A model generated the notes under the pieces. It was not told where the DNA came from and did no database searches. It saw only the letters and a program-made list of their open reading frames with translations. From assembly GCA_002698985.1 (NCBI GenBank), contig PAAY01000004.1:62001-126000 (forward strand): DNA of 64,000 nt, in the 5' to 3' direction. Origin of the DNA: Saprospirales bacterium. Lineage in GTDB: Bacteria > Bacteroidota > Bacteroidia > Chitinophagales > Saprospiraceae. The position numbers were made by a program, and so were the translations under genes. This document shows positions 1-6,171 of this stretch, one piece after another. Each line of letters begins with the position of its first letter. The first letter of the stretch is position 1.

Positions 1-986
1 CCCTGCAGGAAGAGGAGTATTTCACCCAACAGCGCAGCCCGGTGGATGAGGTGTACAAGCTGATAGAGCAAGACTTGGTGGATGCCATTGCCGCCCTTCC
101 GGAAAAGTCAGAATATCCCGCCAAAGACCTGGGCCGGGCTACCAAAGGCGCCGCCCGTGGCATCCTGGCAAAATTGTACATGCTTCGAAAAGACTACACC
201 AAAGCGCTGGAGCAGTGCCAGGCCATCATCAACTCCGGCGAGTACAGCCTGGAGCCACGCTATGGTGATATCTTCCTTCCGCAAGGCGAAAACGGAGTTG
301 AGAGCATTTTCGAGATCGGTGCAGTGGCAGTGCAAGCCGCTGTAGCTGGCTCAGGTGCGTCTCCTTACAACATGATCCAGGGTGTGCGTGGCATCCCCAA
401 CCTCGGCTGGGGTTTCAACCGCCCCAGCGACGACCTGGTGGCCAGCTATGAACCCGGTGACCCTCGCCGGCAGGCCACCATCATCTACGTCGGTGAAGTA
501 CTCCCCGACGGCAGCACCATCGTGCAGGACAACCCCGAAATCGTGAACGAACGTTACAACCAGAAAGCATGGGTGCCTGCACACCCTGGCCTTCAGGATA
601 ACGGCCCCGGCAACCTGCGTCTTCTCCGCTACGCCGACATTCTCCTCCTTGCCTCCGAAGCCCTCAACGAGCTGGGTCAACCGGACCAGGCACTCACCTA
701 CCTGAACATGGTCCGCCAACGGGCCCGCGGTACCAACAACTTCATCCTGCCCGATATCACCACCACCGACCAGACGGAACTGCGCACCATCATCCGCCAC
801 GAACGCCGCGTAGAGCTGGCCATGGAACAACAGCGCTGGTTCGACCTGCTGCGCTGGGGCATCGCCGGTGATGTAATGCAGGCCCTCGGCAAAAACTTCG
901 AAAAAGGCAAACACGAACTGCTACCGCTACCCCAATCGGAAATTGACCTGAGCGGGGGGAGACTCCAACAAAATTCAGGCTACTGA
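1..986 (+). CDS. RagB/SusD-family nutrient uptake outer membrane lipoprotein (5' end outside window)
   Basis: The reading frame is open from base 3, so the gene starts before the window and about 327 C-terminal residues are seen. The sequence has the SusD look: a TPR-like helical stretch (ARGILAKLYMLRKDYTKAL), the late motif LRYADILLLASEALNELG, RHERRVELAMEQQRWFDLLRW, and the closing LPLPQSEIDL...NSGY. In this family the protein is a surface-exposed lipoprotein that forms the lid of a SusC-type TonB-dependent transporter and captures glycans or peptides; the SusC partner is expected upstream, outside the window. The substrate cannot be told from this part. The TGA stop (984-986) is also the first triplet of the repeat array that follows. 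Confidence 0.93.
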   Translation, partial: LQEEEYFTQQRSPVDEVYKLIEQDLVDAIAALPEKSEYPAKDLGRATKGAARGILAKLYMLRKDYTKALEQCQAIINSGEYSLEPRYGDIFLPQGENGVESIFEIGAVAVQAAVAGSGASPYNMIQGVRGIPNLGWGFNRPSDDLVASYEPGDPRRQATIIYVGEVLPDGSTIVQDNPEIVNERYNQKAWVPAHPGLQDNGPGNLRLLRYADILLLASEALNELGQPDQALTYLNMVRQRARGTNNFILPDITTTDQTELRTIIRHERRVELAMEQQRWFDLLRWGIAGDVMQALGKNFEKGKHELLPLPQSEIDLSGGRLQQNSGY

Positions 987-1267
987 CTTTGATTCTTGTG
1001 ATTATGTGATGGACTATGATTAGGCAGGTTGAAATCAAGGTAATCAAGGCAATCAAAAAAATCAGAGTCTGACTTTGATTAATGTGATTGTATGATGGGC
1101 TGTGATGGACGCTGGTTAATATGATTTAATGATGGACTGTGATTAGGCGTTGTTGAAATCAAGGTAATCAAGAAAATCAGGCAAATCAAAGTAAAACTAT
1201 GGTTGGGATGGATTATATTTATCCGTGGAGAATCAAGATGATCAAGAAAATCAAATGAATCAAAGTA
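984..1267. repeat. Upstream arm of palindromic nonamer repeat array
   Basis: Two imperfect palindromic units are visible, 985-1069 and 1071-1192, plus a solitary right arm at 1231-1266. Each unit begins GACTTTGATT, passes through GATT-type steps about 9 bases apart (TGTGATTAT), crosses a loop, and returns as AATCAAGGY-type nonamers ending in ATCARAGTC, the inverse of the start. The first unit overlaps the TGA of the susD gene. The last right arm ends only 9 bases before the ATG of the GxxExxY gene. Copies here are more divergent than those downstream of that gene. Confidence 0.85.
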
Positions 1268-1274
1268 CAGACAC

Positions 1275-1700
1275 ATGATCAAAGAACAATACATATACTC
1301 TGATCTGACCGCAAAAATCATCGGCTGCGCAATGGAGGTACACCGCCAGTTGGGCAATGGATTTCCTGAAAAGCTTTACCAGCGGGCATTGGCCATTGAA
1401 ATGGAATCGCAAGGGCTATCGTTCAGCCGGGAATTTGTAATGCCGGTTTACTACAAGGGGCAGAAGATAGGCACCCGCCGGGCAGATTTCTTGGTGGAGA
1501 AAGTCATCGCAGTCGAGTTAAAAGCGGTGATCCAGCTGGAAGATGTACACCTCGCACAAGCCATCAACTACCTGGAAGCCTACGACTTGGAGGTAGGTTT
1601 ATTGATAAACTTCGGTGCCCGGAGCCTTCAGTTCAAGCGGGTTCAGAATAAGAAGTTCAATCAGGCGAAGCAGGGGAACCCAAACGTGAGGAAAAAGTAA
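1275..1700 (+). CDS. GxxExxY family protein (PD-(D/E)XK nuclease-like, PDDEXK_3)
   Basis: A 141-residue protein with the signature GFPEKLY (residues 29-35), which gives the family its name GxxExxY. A PD-(D/E)XK-type active site is visible: E42, D71 in RRADFLV, and E81-x-K83 in AVELKA, with D71 and E81 spaced by nine residues. This is the layout expected of an endonuclease-like fold, but to my knowledge no activity or substrate is firmly established for the family. The C-terminus is basic (KKFNQAKQGNPNVRKK), fitting nucleic-acid contact. The ATG lies 9 bases after a repeat arm, and another repeat arm begins 10 bases after the stop, so the gene sits inside the repeat array with no independent promoter seen. 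Family call is sure; biochemical role is inferred. Confidence 0.9.
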   Translation: MIKEQYIYSDLTAKIIGCAMEVHRQLGNGFPEKLYQRALAIEMESQGLSFSREFVMPVYYKGQKIGTRRADFLVEKVIAVELKAVIQLEDVHLAQAINYLEAYDLEVGLLINFGARSLQFKRVQNKKFNQAKQGNPNVRKK

Positions 1701-1707
1701 AGACAGG

Positions 1708-2021
1708 TTGAAATCAAGGCAATCAAGGCAATCACATGAATCAAAGTCGGGCTGTGATTAATGTGATTATGTGATGGACTATGATTAGACAAGGGTTGAA
1801 ATCAGGGCAATCAAGGCAATCACATAAATCAAAGTCGGGCTGTGATTAATGTGATTATGTGATGTGCTATGATTAGACAAGGGTTGAAATCAAGGCAATC
1901 AAGGCAATCACATGAATCAAAGTCGGACTGTGATTAAGGTGATTATGTGATGTGCTATGATTAGGCAAGGGGTGAAATCAAGGCAATCAATAAATCATAC
2001 GAATCAAGGTCTTCATAGTCA
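1708..2021. repeat. Downstream tandem array of an 88-bp palindromic unit
   Basis: The marker TTGAAATCA (last copy GTGAAATCA) recurs at 1708, 1796, 1884 and 1972, exactly 88 bases apart. Each unit carries nonamers AATCAAGGC, AATCAAGGC, AATCACATG, AATCAAAGT, then the inverse GATT-type steps (TGTGATTAATGTGATTATG) and a short spacer containing GATTAGACAAGG. The two halves can pair into an imperfect stem of about 38 bp. Units are nearly identical to one another, unlike the upstream arm. The array runs up to the TGA of sufT on the opposite strand (2019-2021). This explains the whole 318-base gap between the GxxExxY gene and sufT. Confidence 0.9.
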
Positions 2022-2330
2022 AAACATGTCCAGCATCAGCCGTGCCTCTTCGCTCATGCGCTCTTTGGTCCAGGGTGGGTCGAAAACCACTTGCAGGTCC
2101 ACGTCGTTGACACCTTCCACTTCCATGACTTTTTGCTGTACTTCCAAAGGTAGTGAGCCGGCCACCGGACACATGGGGGTGGTCAAGGTCATTTTAATGT
2201 CCACTTTTCCGTCGTCAGAAATGGCGATGTCGTAGATCAGGCCCAACTCGTAGATGTCCACGGGGATCTCCGGGTCGTGCACGGTTTTGATGGCGGCTAT
2301 GATCTTTTCTCTGAGGCTGTCACGGTCCAT
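2019..2330 (-). CDS. sufT: SufT-like Fe-S assembly protein (DUF59/MIP18 family)
   Basis: A 103-residue single-domain DUF59 protein. Visible family features are the N-terminal HDPEIPVDIYELGLIYDI and the conserved TTPMCP stretch with its cysteine, then PLEVQQKV and a VVFDPPWTKERMSEEAR tail. DUF59 proteins act in Fe-S cluster assembly or delivery (SufT in bacteria, MIP18/CIA2 in eukaryotes). It is the last gene of the suf operon, 4 bases after the sufE stop, which supports this role over the related PaaD subunit of phenylacetyl-CoA epoxygenase. Its TGA abuts the repeat array. Confidence 0.9.
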   Translation of the reverse strand: MDRDSLREKIIAAIKTVHDPEIPVDIYELGLIYDIAISDDGKVDIKMTLTTPMCPVAGSLPLEVQQKVMEVEGVNDVDLQVVFDPPWTKERMSEEARLMLDMF

Positions 2331-2334
2331 TTGA

Positions 2335-2772
2335 TTATTCGTTCTTGCCGGTCAATTGTTTTTGAAAAGCCAGGGCGTATAGTTTCATCTGTTTCAGCAT
2401 GCTCACCAGGCCGTTGGCACGAGTGGGCGACAGGTGTTCTTTCAGCCCGATTTTGTCCAGGAAGTAGAGGTCGGCATCCAGGATTTCCTGTGGGCTGTGG
2501 CCCGAAAGCACCCTGATTAGCAGAGCGATGATGCCTTTGGTGATAACGGCATCGCTGTCGGCTTTGAAAACCACCTTGCCGTCTTCGAGGTTTGCGTGCA
2601 GCCACACTTTGCTTTGGCAACCCCTTACCAGGTAGTCCTCCGTTTTGTATTGCTCGTCGATGAGGGGAAGGTCTTTTCCCAGCTCGATGATGTATTCGTA
2701 TTTCTCCAACCAGTCGCCAAAAAAGGAAAACTCTTCGATGATGGCGTCCTGGATCTGGTTGATGCTTTCCAT
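2335..2772 (-). CDS. sufE: Cysteine desulfuration protein SufE
   Basis: A 145-residue SufE/NifU-like fold protein. It accepts persulfide sulfur from the SufS cysteine desulfurase and passes it to the SufBCD scaffold. The acceptor cysteine is C52 in LVRGCQSKVW, equivalent to C51 of the E. coli protein. The family hallmarks GDWLEKYEYIIELG and LSPTRANGLVSML are present and the length is normal. It lies 32 bases downstream of sufS and 4 bases upstream of sufT in one transcription unit. Confidence 0.95.
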   Translation of the reverse strand: MESINQIQDAIIEEFSFFGDWLEKYEYIIELGKDLPLIDEQYKTEDYLVRGCQSKVWLHANLEDGKVVFKADSDAVITKGIIALLIRVLSGHSPQEILDADLYFLDKIGLKEHLSPTRANGLVSMLKQMKLYALAFQKQLTGKNE

Positions 2773-2804
2773 GCGATATTGGTTTCGCTTCGCAAAAAAG
2801 CGGT

Positions 2805-4049
2805 TTAAAGCAAGAGTTTCACGGCTCGTTTGATACCGGCAGCCAGCCTATCCAGCTCTGCTTTGGTGGTGTACATGCCAAAGGAGGCCCGCACAGTGCC
2901 GGGAATGCCGAAGCGATCCATGATCGGCTCGGTACAGTGGTGGCCGGTACGCACGGCTATCCCCATTTTGTCGAGCAGGGTACCGATGTCGTAGGGGTGG
3001 GTGCCTTCCACCACGAAAGAAAGCAGGCCTGCTTTGTTGGAAGCATTGCCTATCAGGCGCAAGCCAGGTATTTCACGAAGCAGCTCGGTGCCGTATTTCA
3101 GTAATTCGTTTTCGTGTTCCGCAATGTTGTTAAGGCCGATTCCCTGCAGGTATTCAATGGCGGCATGCAGCCCCACACTGCCGGCGATGTCTGGTGTGCC
3201 GGCTTCAAATTTGAAGGGCAGCTCGTTGTAAGTGGTCTTTTCGAAGGTGACCCGTGAGATCATCTCTCCGCCGCCGTGGTAAGGTGGCATTTTTTCCAAC
3301 CACGCAGTTTTTCCGAAGAGAATGCCGATGCCCGTAGGGCCGTACATTTTATGGCCGCTGAAAGCATAGAAATCCACATCCAGTTCCGAAACGTTGACAG
3401 GTGAATGCGGCACGGCCTGTGCTCCGTCCACCAGGACAGGAATGCCATATTGATGAGCCATCTTCACAATTTCCCGGATGGGGTTGATGGTTCCCAGGGT
3501 GTTGGATACATGCGTGAGTGCCAGGATTTTAACCGGCCCCTGCAGGTATTGCCCGAGGGCATCCATGTCCAGCTCTCCTTCGTCGGAGATGGGAACTACC
3601 CGCAGTGTGGCTCCTGTTCGTTCGCAGATGAGTTGCCAGGGAACGATGTTGGAATGATGCTCCATCCAGGTGATGAGTACTTCATCTCCTGGCTTTAAAA
3701 AGGCGCTGCCGAAGCTGCTGGCCACCAGGTTGATGGACTCTGTGGTGCCACGGGTAAAAATGACCTCGTGCTCCTCCCTAGCACCGATAAAACGCTGTAC
3801 GGCCTTGCGGGCTGCCTCAAACATATCGGTGGCTTCCTGGCTGAGCTGATACACCCCCCTGTGCACGTTGGCGTGGTGCTGCCGGTAGTAGTTGTCCATG
3901 GCCTGCAATACCGGAAGAGGTTTCTGACTGGAAGCAGCGGTGTCGAGGAAACAAAGGGGCTGGCCATTCATCTCCCGTTGCAGAATGGGAAAATCCTTCC
4001 GCACGGCTTCCACATCAAAAACACCGGTTGTTGCAAGGTTTCCGGACAT
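2805..4049 (-). CDS. sufS: Cysteine desulfurase SufS (class II)
   Basis: A 414-residue PLP enzyme that removes sulfur from L-cysteine, giving alanine and an enzyme-bound persulfide. The PLP lysine is K234 in AFSGHKMYGPTGIG, and the active cysteine is C372 in RTGHHCTEP, the short-loop arrangement of SufS rather than IscS. The N-terminal FLDTAASSQKP and the HRGVYQLS segment are standard. Length matches the family. The gene starts 3 bases after the sufD stop, so translation is probably coupled, and sufE, its partner, follows. Confidence 0.97.
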   Translation of the reverse strand: MSGNLATTGVFDVEAVRKDFPILQREMNGQPLCFLDTAASSQKPLPVLQAMDNYYRQHHANVHRGVYQLSQEATDMFEAARKAVQRFIGAREEHEVIFTRGTTESINLVASSFGSAFLKPGDEVLITWMEHHSNIVPWQLICERTGATLRVVPISDEGELDMDALGQYLQGPVKILALTHVSNTLGTINPIREIVKMAHQYGIPVLVDGAQAVPHSPVNVSELDVDFYAFSGHKMYGPTGIGILFGKTAWLEKMPPYHGGGEMISRVTFEKTTYNELPFKFEAGTPDIAGSVGLHAAIEYLQGIGLNNIAEHENELLKYGTELLREIPGLRLIGNASNKAGLLSFVVEGTHPYDIGTLLDKMGIAVRTGHHCTEPIMDRFGIPGTVRASFGMYTTKAELDRLAAGIKRAVKLLL

Positions 4050-4052
4050 GGG

Positions 4053-5372
4053 TCAATGGTTGTAAAGCTTATCGTGAACGAGTTTTTCCACAAAATTTCT
4101 CACAGGTTCGTGAGGCATGTTGCTGATCACCTCGCCTAGAAAGGCAAATTGCAGGAGGGTGCGGGCTTCCCGCAGCGGCAGGCCCCTCGAACGCAGGTAA
4201 AAAACGGCGCTTTCGTCCAGTTGGCCGATGGTGGCACCGTGGCTGCATTTCACATCATCGGCAAAGATCTCCAACTGCGGCTTGGCGTCCATAATTGCAT
4301 CGGGTGAGAGCAGCAGGGTGCTGTTTTGCTGAAAAGCATTGGTCTTTTGGGCATCGGGGCGCACCAGCACCTTGCCGTTGAAAACACCCCTGGCCTTACC
4401 GGTCACGATGCCTTTGTACAGCTCGTTGCTGTTGCAATGGGGCACGGCGTGGTCCATAAAAGTCTGGTTGTCCACGTGTTGCTCGCCATTGATGAGGTAA
4501 ATGCCGTTGAGGTGTGTCTCGGTGTTCGACTGCTCCAGCAGCACGTTCTGGTTGTTGCGCACGATGGCGCCTCCCAGGTCGGTTGCATAAGAACTGTATA
4601 CACTGTCCCGCTCTTGCTCCACTTCACAAAAGTTGATCTGGAAAGCAGTGTCGCTTTCCCTTTGCAGGCGGTAGTGGTGCACATGGGCGTTGGCTTCCAG
4701 CCGCAGGCAGCTGACAGCACAGGTGAAGTGCGGCGTATTTCCTTCCTTCGGTAAATAGTGCTCCATCACGGAAAACTCACTGCCAGTTTGTGCGTGCACC
4801 CACAATTGGGGAAACTGCACAAAGGCTTCTTCCCCGGTGGAGAACATCATCAGGTGTACGGGTTTCTCGATGACGGCACCTTTCTGCACCTCCATGTACC
4901 ACCCGTTTTGCCCGAAGGCAGTATTCATTACCACGAATGGATTGTCATGCATGGCATGGGCCTCGAGTTTGGCGCTCAGCCATTCAGAATCCTCACCTTC
5001 CAGGGCATCAGCCAGGGATTTAATGGTCAGCCCTTGCGGCCATTGCGACGCAGGCGTTGAAAGGGCCGGGACAAACTGCCCATTGACGAAGACGAAACGG
5101 ATGTCGTCGAGGTCTTTGATGGCGGCATTTTCAATGTGTTCGGGGCTGAGCGTTGTGGCTTTTCCCAAAGCCCAGTTTTGGGAGACAATTTGGCGAACGC
5201 TGGTGTATTTCCAGTCTTCGTCCCTTCTGGTCGGGAAGCGCATTTCCTCGAGGTGAGCAGCGGCTTTGTCCTGAAGGGCTGCCAGCTTTGGTGCCGGCGA
5301 AGACAGGGCTTTGGCCTTTTCGTACAGCTCTATGAAGTGGCCTATATGTTCTGATGCGATGGCGGTTGGCAT
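4053..5372 (-). CDS. sufD: Fe-S cluster assembly protein SufD
   Basis: A 439-residue SufD, a beta-helix scaffold subunit that pairs with SufB and binds the SufC ATPase. Recognisable parts are RRDEDWKYTS near the N-terminus, the long beta-helix, and the C-terminal KCSHGATIGQLDESAVFYLRSRG block that houses the SufC contact. I chose the ATG at 5372 (MPTAIASEHIG), which leaves a 40-base gap after sufC. An in-frame start at 5429 would add 19 residues and overlap the sufC 3' end, with a non-conserved N-terminus. Together with SufB and SufC it forms the SufBC2D complex. Confidence 0.95.
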   Translation of the reverse strand: MPTAIASEHIGHFIELYEKAKALSSPAPKLAALQDKAAAHLEEMRFPTRRDEDWKYTSVRQIVSQNWALGKATTLSPEHIENAAIKDLDDIRFVFVNGQFVPALSTPASQWPQGLTIKSLADALEGEDSEWLSAKLEAHAMHDNPFVVMNTAFGQNGWYMEVQKGAVIEKPVHLMMFSTGEEAFVQFPQLWVHAQTGSEFSVMEHYLPKEGNTPHFTCAVSCLRLEANAHVHHYRLQRESDTAFQINFCEVEQERDSVYSSYATDLGGAIVRNNQNVLLEQSNTETHLNGIYLINGEQHVDNQTFMDHAVPHCNSNELYKGIVTGKARGVFNGKVLVRPDAQKTNAFQQNSTLLLSPDAIMDAKPQLEIFADDVKCSHGATIGQLDESAVFYLRSRGLPLREARTLLQFAFLGEVISNMPHEPVRNFVEKLVHDKLYNH

Positions 5373-5412
5373 TGCTTGATTTGTTTTTTCACGAAAGCGG
5401 TTGATGACTCCT

Positions 5413-6171
5413 TTAGCCGGCAACGGCATTTTCTTCCTTGATCCAGTCGTAACCTTTCTCTTCCAGTTGCAGGGCCAGCTCTTTGCCGCCGGATTTCACG
5501 ATGCGGCCGTTGAAGAGCACGTGCACAAAATCCGGAACGATGTAGTTGAGCAGGCGCTGGTAGTGGGTCACCACGATGAAAGAGCGGTCGGGGCTGCGCA
5601 GGGCGTTCACGGAATCAGCCACCACTTTCAGGGCGTCGATGTCAAGTCCGGAGTCCGTTTCATCGAGGATGGCGAGGCTGGGCTCCAGCAAGGCCATCTG
5701 CAGCATTTCGTTGCGCTTTTTCTCACCGCCGCTGAAGCCTTCGTTGAGCGAGCGCTTGAGCATTTGCTCGTCCATGCCCAACAGCTTCGTTTTGGAACGG
5801 ATGAACTTGAGCATTTCCACCGGACTCAGCTCCTGCTGGCCGCGGGCACGGCGGTTGGCGTTGATGGCCTCTTTGAGGAAAGTGGCCATGCTGACACCCG
5901 GTATTTCCACCGGGTATTGAAAAGCCAGAAAAACACCGGCGTGAGCCCTTTCGTCCACGTCCATCTCCAGGAGGTCTTCACCTTTGTAAATGACGGAGCC
6001 TTCGGTAACCTCGTATTCTTCCCTTCCGGCCAGCACATTGGCCAGGGTTGATTTACCGGAGCCATTGGGGCCCATGATGGCGTGCACCTCACCGGGGTTC
6101 ACCTCCAGGTTGATGCCTTTGAGTATTTCGTTGCCTTCTACTGAGGCGTGCAAATTCTTAATACTGAGCAT
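5413..6171 (-). CDS. sufC: Fe-S cluster assembly ATPase SufC
   Basis: A 252-residue ABC-type ATPase with Walker [10 protein letters not shown] at residues 34-42, signature [10 protein letters not shown], and Walker [13 protein letters not shown] followed by the switch histidine in VVTHYQRLL. It energises conformational change of the SufBCD scaffold; it is cytosolic, not part of a transporter. It sits between sufB and sufD, which decides the call over other ABC ATPases. Length is typical. Confidence 0.97.

Follow-up and report, generated by a model that had tools for sequence, protein, structure and literature searches.

The locus described here resembles REPIN/RAYT systems and the S23 intervening sequences (IVS) of 23S rRNA. 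In REPIN/RAYT systems, according to passages of two published accounts, a small gene for a DNA enzyme lies between two inverted palindromes, and similar hairpins without the gene are scattered elsewhere (PMC2817692, PMC3116915). The IS200/IS605 family, to which RAYT is related, leaves no larger target duplications in the part of the account that treats it (PMC2817692). The 23S rRNA IVS is presented, in the sections concerned, as a selfish element that was acquired horizontally and carries one small ORF (PMC4990558). Intergenic heptamers such as TAACTGA occur in Beggiatoaceae, cyanobacteria, and Bacteroidetes; the pertinent passages describe no agent for them, and their author considered that a repeat-binding protein might be a mobile element (PMC4679880).

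The window (i.e., the whole 64,000-nucleotide stretch of Saprospirales bacterium DNA that was analysed) contains a gene of the GxxExxY family. A preliminary description of this DNA had placed the gene amid inverted repeats, and we found this to hold: the ORF at 1275-1700 is intact (141 aa) and has arms on both sides. The gene is flanked on each side by AATCAAGGC-type arms and by inverse arms of the GATT type, spaced approximately 9 nt apart. The names of the neighbouring ORFs, susD-like and suf, are ones that we presume from their translations. The features of the locus are as follows.

985-1069, no strand: hairpin unit A, its left end overlapping the susD stop TGA (984-986); ssDNA fold z -1.97
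1070-1193, no strand: hairpin unit B; ssDNA fold z -2.60
1194-1272, no strand: degenerate unit C, ending in AATCAAAGTACAGACA (1257-1272); pattern match G000:C10:63249-63272, one mismatch
1275-1700, plus strand: GxxExxY (TIGR04256/PF13366) predicted PD-(D/E)XK nuclease gene, 141 aa; profile matches, invariant residues, AF2 model
1701-1748, no strand: right arm adjoining the gene, AATCA-type 9-nt repeats; repeat inspection
1749-1836, no strand: 88-bp hairpin unit 1; ssDNA fold z -3.66
1837-1924, no strand: 88-bp hairpin unit 2; ssDNA fold z -4.49
1925-2015, no strand: 88-bp unit 3, the last copy, degenerate towards the sufT stop; repeat inspection

The right side is a tandem 88-bp unit, the 109-nt stretches at 1794 and 1882 being 95% and 94% identical to the stretch at 1706. 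As ssDNA, the right array folds at -48.8 compared to -25.6 for shuffles (sd 3.2; z -7.2), the left array reaches z -3.0, and four single units range from z -2.0 to -4.5. Folding of the window arrays is more than chance. The array had also been said to run from stop codon to stop codon; it does start at the susD-like TGA, and at the other side the final unit that can be made out reaches 2015, leaving 3 bases up to the sufT stop on the minus strand (2019-2021). We searched the bacterium's own genome (4.83 Mb, 102 contigs, 95.5% complete), in which the window gene is the only GxxExxY match. Gene-free copies of the array, sought there at the suggestion of the preliminary description, did not appear: all 11 matches to AATCAAGGNAATCAAGGNAATCA (up to 3 mismatches) fall at the window locus, and its reversed control has 0. 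The only evident near-canonical element end in the window copy is AATCAAAGTACAGACA, directly before the ATG, and the copy is rearranged and partly decayed. No Rfam 15 family scored above its gathering score in window 900-2100, and among six other loci only L115 gave a match, a SAM riboswitch.

The window protein matches TIGR04256 (E 8e-42, 142.3 bits; curated cut-off 35) and PF13366 (E 2.4e-40, 138 bits; cut-off 22), the latter being its sole Pfam match at E<=1. The library entries for both give a nuclease superfamily without a biological role. Residues E32, D71, E81, K83, Q95, and Y99 are invariant across 77 sequences, and we take the E...D...ExK core followed by QxxxY to be the motifs of RecB/Cas4-type PD-(D/E)XK enzymes. 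An AF2 model of the protein (pLDDT 89.7, pTM 0.83) has as its best Foldseek matches Cas4 SSO0001 (4ic1; E 4e-5) and lambda exonuclease (E 1.4e-3), followed by LHK-Exo, with MGME1 and AddAB lower and RNA splicing endonucleases among the weaker matches; the VIA Z was 9.1 for 4ic1 and below 8 for other structures. Residues and predicted fold both place the protein in the RecB/Cas4-like branch of PD-(D/E)XK proteins. The active-site residues of this Cas4/RecB-like protein do not vary, and these data suggest an active nuclease that works on DNA ends or ssDNA. Cas4 has four cysteines that bind an Fe-S cluster; the 141-aa translation has one Cys, which leaves no Cas4-type Fe-S cluster, although predicted fold, E-D-ExK core, and QxxxY motif are Cas4/RecB-like. 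Sequence searches returned no PDB relative at E<=10 and one weak PHROG match whose function is unannotated. We rejected a defence system (0 families at E<=1 in PADLOC-DB 2.0.0), a phage vehicle (0 matches among 50,697 phage records at E<=1e-5), and a plasmid vehicle (only 8 of 72,556 plasmid records match at E<=1e-5). None of the near window ORFs, as read, is a CRISPR or helicase gene.

We next compared GxxExxY loci from other genomes in three sets: the 80 closest loci, chosen by protein alone (set A), the 30 best-scoring family loci of the class (set B), and 40 loci hand-picked from middle and lower ranks among the matches listed (set C). In set A, GTCTGAACYWTGATT (up to 3 mismatches) has 179 matches in 61.0 kb of near flank versus 35 in 212.7 kb farther out, and an element end lies on at least one side in 61 and on both sides in 43 of the 76 loci whose two flanks are both 100 bp or longer. 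Sets B and C mostly have other arm sequences, for example ACCACAGAGGACACAGAGG or AACCGCAAAGACGCAGAG, which are also inverted across the gene. We aligned each upstream flank locally with the reverse complement of the downstream flank, with a threshold score of 18, omitting four of the 80 set-A loci for short flanks and dropping one ParE locus (L228). Inverted arms were found in 31/76, 18/30, and 29/40 loci of sets A, B, and C (45, 12, and 11 fell below the threshold), compared to 1/30 rpsR and 0/29 ParE control genes. Mismatched flank pairs reached the threshold in 118/380, 23/150, and 15/200 cases, respectively; in set A, nearly all of whose loci share one short arm type, own pairs do little better than these. 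The score at lag 9 is raised in all three sets (8.3, 8.3, and 8.0) relative to rpsR (6.2) and ParE (6.4), with lag 10 equal to lag 9 in set B (8.4), and lag is a weak detector for a single locus (18/80, 8/30, and 6/40 above threshold; controls 3/30 and 3/29). Thus, the enrichment of inverted arrays at GxxExxY genes elsewhere, on which the preliminary description had staked its pairing, is present relative to rpsR, to ParE, and to more distant DNA. The association recurs in genomes labelled as many groups. The GxxExxY gene commonly lies between inverted arms, and the pairing is general.

Arm sequence differs with the type of protein. Proteins of the GNGFQE type have GATT arms in 67 cases, CACAGAG/CGCAAAG-like (CRC) arms in 0, and unclear arms in 12; those of the GPGLLE type have GATT arms in 2, CACAGAG/CGCAAAG-like arms in 42, and unclear arms in 22. 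Of the 150 proteins counted, 37 have no clear arm type and 5 belong to neither clade, 3 proteins falling in both of these groups. The exceptions are the GPGLLE-like L244 and L263, which have TGATT arms. On a tree of 143 proteins (the window protein and 142 of the 150 from GxxExxY loci; 35 rows unlabelled, branch support poor), arm labels change 41 times compared to a shuffled mean of 76.2, and 0 of 200 shuffles were as low. Furthermore, three genomes labelled Calditrichaceae, Melioribacter, and Ignavibacteriales (G403, G404, and G406) each contain both clades, with GATT arms around the GNGFQE gene and arms of the CAC or CGC type around the GPGLLE gene. In the survey that included these genomes, the gene could be placed in 25 of 30 loci, approximately half of them set-A loci found again, and 12 of the 25 pass the inverted-arm threshold. 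At the level of sequence, then, arm type follows protein clade, even within one genome. Since the arms are clade-specific, these data support recognition of the arms by the protein.

We asked how gene-free hairpins are distributed over the 296 genomes searched in the class. GTCTGAACYNTGATTNNNNTGATT is present in 67 of them (reversed control 17 genomes, 18 matches) and ACCACAGAGNNCACAGAG in 74 (reversed control 5 genomes, 5 matches); single pattern matches are partly chance, so we required at least two. The preliminary description had tied its proposal to such arrays not being independent of the gene, and they are not: the gene is present in 63 of 72 array genomes with at least two matches versus 125 of the remaining 224 (p 5e-7), those 125 gene-bearing genomes showing neither pattern at this threshold. 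Genomes can hold many hairpins and one gene, as do G144 (62 array matches) and G274 (36). In G144, the element that carries the gene measures 459 bp and has the same ends as the ~84-95-bp hairpins of that genome, where a 1,100-bp query around one hairpin has 82 matches (flank matches and both-strand doubles included). One G274 hairpin (L330) is 105 bp long; its two arms agree in 44 of 45 positions, and its fold z is -16.5. The arms around gene copies agree with gene-free copies from the same genome at 20.8 of 24 positions, and with those from other genomes at 18.3 (0 of 10,000 permutations). Of 14 genomes whose gene loci were examined, 9 had arms and 8 entered this comparison, with gene-free copies chosen by hand among the matches listed and some G176 copies adjoining truncated gene copies.

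Like MITEs, the gene-free hairpins are short, non-coding, dispersed, and bounded by inverted ends, which they have in common with the gene-bearing elements. We read 27 end-pairs, of which 20 are short (53-153 bp), all without the gene motif, and 7 are longer, all with it. Counting L134 and L441 once, as the same locus, and setting aside L433, which was chosen for its known gene, leaves a small sample of 5 distinct long pairs found by pattern (L317 and L431 chosen for long end spacing), and all 5 hold GxxExxY. For the L152 hairpin, we rejected G168, G144, G117, and G011 as clean empty sites on the layout of its flanks, which are approximately 1 kb apart in G168 and on different contigs in the others. 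Separately, G290 combines 149 CACAGAG array matches with just two to GxxExxY (L355, L362); an internal TGA interrupts one of these, and the other is truncated where its contig stops.

Both ends, TGTCTGAAC...GTTCAGACA (outermost, one mismatch allowed), are present in 50 of 150 loci, nearly all of set A, and delimit elements of 464-967 bp (median 559). Short target duplications of at least 4 bp occur in 5 of these 50 gene-bearing elements versus 10% of mismatched pairs, so that target-site duplication of the MITE/DDE type is not a feature of them; longer imperfect duplications at the hsdR tails of L066 and L091 were judged ambiguous. Past the right end, 40 of the 50 elements continue with A (background 34%) and 29 with AT (background 9%). 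Among 41 elements with a long upstream ORF, the stop codon of that ORF lies within the element or overlaps the element's start in 29, an uncontrolled count, and an ATG lies at most 9 nt past the right end in 28 of the 50. Upstream stops inside the element and a start just after it fit the earlier remark on stop-to-stop arrays.

Several kinds of site recur. Type I restriction junctions (hsdR/hsdS, hsdS/hsdM) are frequent sites of GATT-type elements (L014-L016, L021, L023, L027, L029, L037, L039, L040, L048, L066), some with diverged duplications of the hsdR tail. Fourteen hsdR tails were read: six, all of set A, have an element (L021, L023, L029, L039, L040, L048), and eight do not, the latter coming from genomes other than the occupied ones and not from sister strains. 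In L395, L397, L398, and L400, an hsdS-like start directly follows the element-free hsdR tail. In five genomes, GxxExxY elements lie between apparently the same two aldehyde-dehydrogenase-like genes (L094, L100, L102, L103, L107). The suf genes recur as well, with GxxExxY beside sufT in the window (2019-6171) and S23 genes beside sufE- or sufC-like starts (L175, L177, L180). At L033, tandem 5' fragments of the gene lie 3' of it, each after a GTCTGAAC-type left end, as if partial copies had been laid down repeatedly.

Taken together, gene and repeats have the appearance of a family of very small mobile DNAs that had gone unrecognised. We think it rather probable that the window locus is the resident copy of a one-gene mobile element of which gene-free hairpins are non-autonomous derivatives, movement and cleavage being the parts that we infer. 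The element would consist of a PD-(D/E)XK nuclease gene between inverted arms of short units, mostly 8-10 nt apart. Its protein would recognise its own folded arms as an ssDNA hairpin or cruciform and cut exactly at the conserved ends or close to them; when the snap-back DNA is repaired or replicated, the unit would be copied into junctions between cistrons and could also be amplified in tandem, and gene-free hairpins would be mobilised in trans by the nuclease. Because the arms contain stop codons (TGATT) at which the upstream gene terminates, operons might tolerate insertion between their genes. The idea that GxxExxY is the partner nuclease of these repeats came from the preliminary description, and enrichment, clade-specific arms, and own-genome resemblance speak for it, with cutting and spreading as its presumptive activities. 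The high rate among mismatched set-A pairs and the partly selected long pairs weaken this support.

The repeats might instead be spread by host activities (recombination, replication slippage, or a reverse transcriptase), with GxxExxY as cargo, a nuclease that would cut gene-less arrays, allelic or related, into which repair then copies the gene. Arrays persist without the gene in 9 of the 72 array genomes, e.g., G088 (21 matches) and G181 (8), single genes accompany the many matches of G274 and G144, tandem 88-bp units resemble amplification, and homologous arms would guide repair. However, no cargo other than GxxExxY was seen in the small sample of long end-pairs, and an arm type that tracks protein clade within one genome is unexpected for a mere passenger; we consider this explanation unlikely. 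Less likely still is an RNA-level element like the S23 IVS of 23S rRNA. Such an element would be selected for arms that fold into an RNA hairpin, which is excised or terminates the message upstream, and the nuclease would have RNA as its substrate. Both neighbours have the same sense as the gene in 53 of 61 set-A and 21 of 28 set-B loci compared to 12 of 27 for ParE, where the count used 61 of 80 and 28 of 30 loci and the control is heuristic (for rpsR, the longest-ORF heuristic gave near-random strands). Furthermore, each GATT-arm unit carries a TGA, S23 genes share the architecture with 7-nt units, and the Coxiella IVS is excised by RNase III in the section describing it (PMC4990558). Against this, the nearest folds are the DNA nucleases Cas4, lambda exonuclease, and then MGME1, with RNA splicing endonucleases weaker, and the neighbours examined are protein-coding. 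The window copy, which fills a convergent junction unlike the usual same-sense neighbours, would also suit an unrelated gene that happens to lie among common intergenic repeats or terminators. This explanation is rejected as very unlikely on the rpsR and ParE genes, which lack such inverted flanks, and on the distance control; the array pattern is found nowhere else in the copy's own genome, and the association recurs across genomes labelled as many groups.

The preferred reading, a one-gene mobile element, bears on a widespread family, since TIGR04256 is matched in 188 of the 296 genomes. Through the linkage, the GxxExxY protein acquires a substrate that can be tested, and an enzyme can be proposed for the repeats. 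Should that enzyme prove to mobilise them, a RAYT-like strategy would have evolved with an unrelated nuclease fold, and occupied gene junctions, including type I restriction loci, could be read in many genomes.

We also observed that genes of TIGR02436 (four-helix-bundle, S23) lie in 7-nt arrays, the best lag being 7 in 23 of 30 loci (L153-L182), with inverted arms in 23 of 30 compared to 28 of 150 mismatched pairs. The window's own genome has six TIGR02436 genes, and the one that was read (L161) lies in a GTGACAC-type array. In six genomes, S23 genes stand beside the start of a gene that we take from its translated start to be thiolase-like, apparently at the same place (L162, L164, L165, L169, L172, L174), and their heptamers differ, as if the unit had been rewritten in both arms together. 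The GxxExxY and S23 families seem to be parallel architectures with different periods, and S23-type genes may be the missing partner of the published heptamer repeats. More tentatively, GxxExxY and S23 proteins could be the dedicated enzymes of two parallel, minimal hairpin-array superfamilies (~9-nt and 7-nt units) whose mobilising chemistry differs from that of known transposases, the folded arms being resolved or re-templated by the Cas4-like nuclease to which they belong. If so, both arms would change together, making unit sequences clade- or genome-specific, and many unexplained short-period intergenic repeats of bacteria would be accounted for.

No description of this pairing of gene and repeats was found in the literature searched, which covers few subscription papers and no preprints. 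The heptamers are 7-nt direct repeats for which the passages concerned name no dedicated gene, whereas GxxExxY loci have ~9-nt inverted arms together with a gene (PMC4679880). The S23 IVS lies in 23S rRNA and encodes S23p; GxxExxY sites lie between protein genes and encode a PF13366 protein, and the window locus, with its susD-like and suf neighbours, is accordingly not an S23 IVS. Flanking palindromes are shared with REPIN/RAYT by the GxxExxY family, and the window copy has the arms without dispersed relatives in its own genome. The differences are that RAYTs are tyrosine transposases and GxxExxY is a PD-(D/E)XK protein with a predicted Cas4-like fold, in keeping with the lack of any tyrosine (HUH) transposase match among Pfam families at E<=1, and that GxxExxY arms are runs of ~9-nt units in elements that abut operon gene junctions. 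By analogy, our best reading is that the GxxExxY element works like REPIN/RAYT with an unrelated enzyme and would move in a comparable way.
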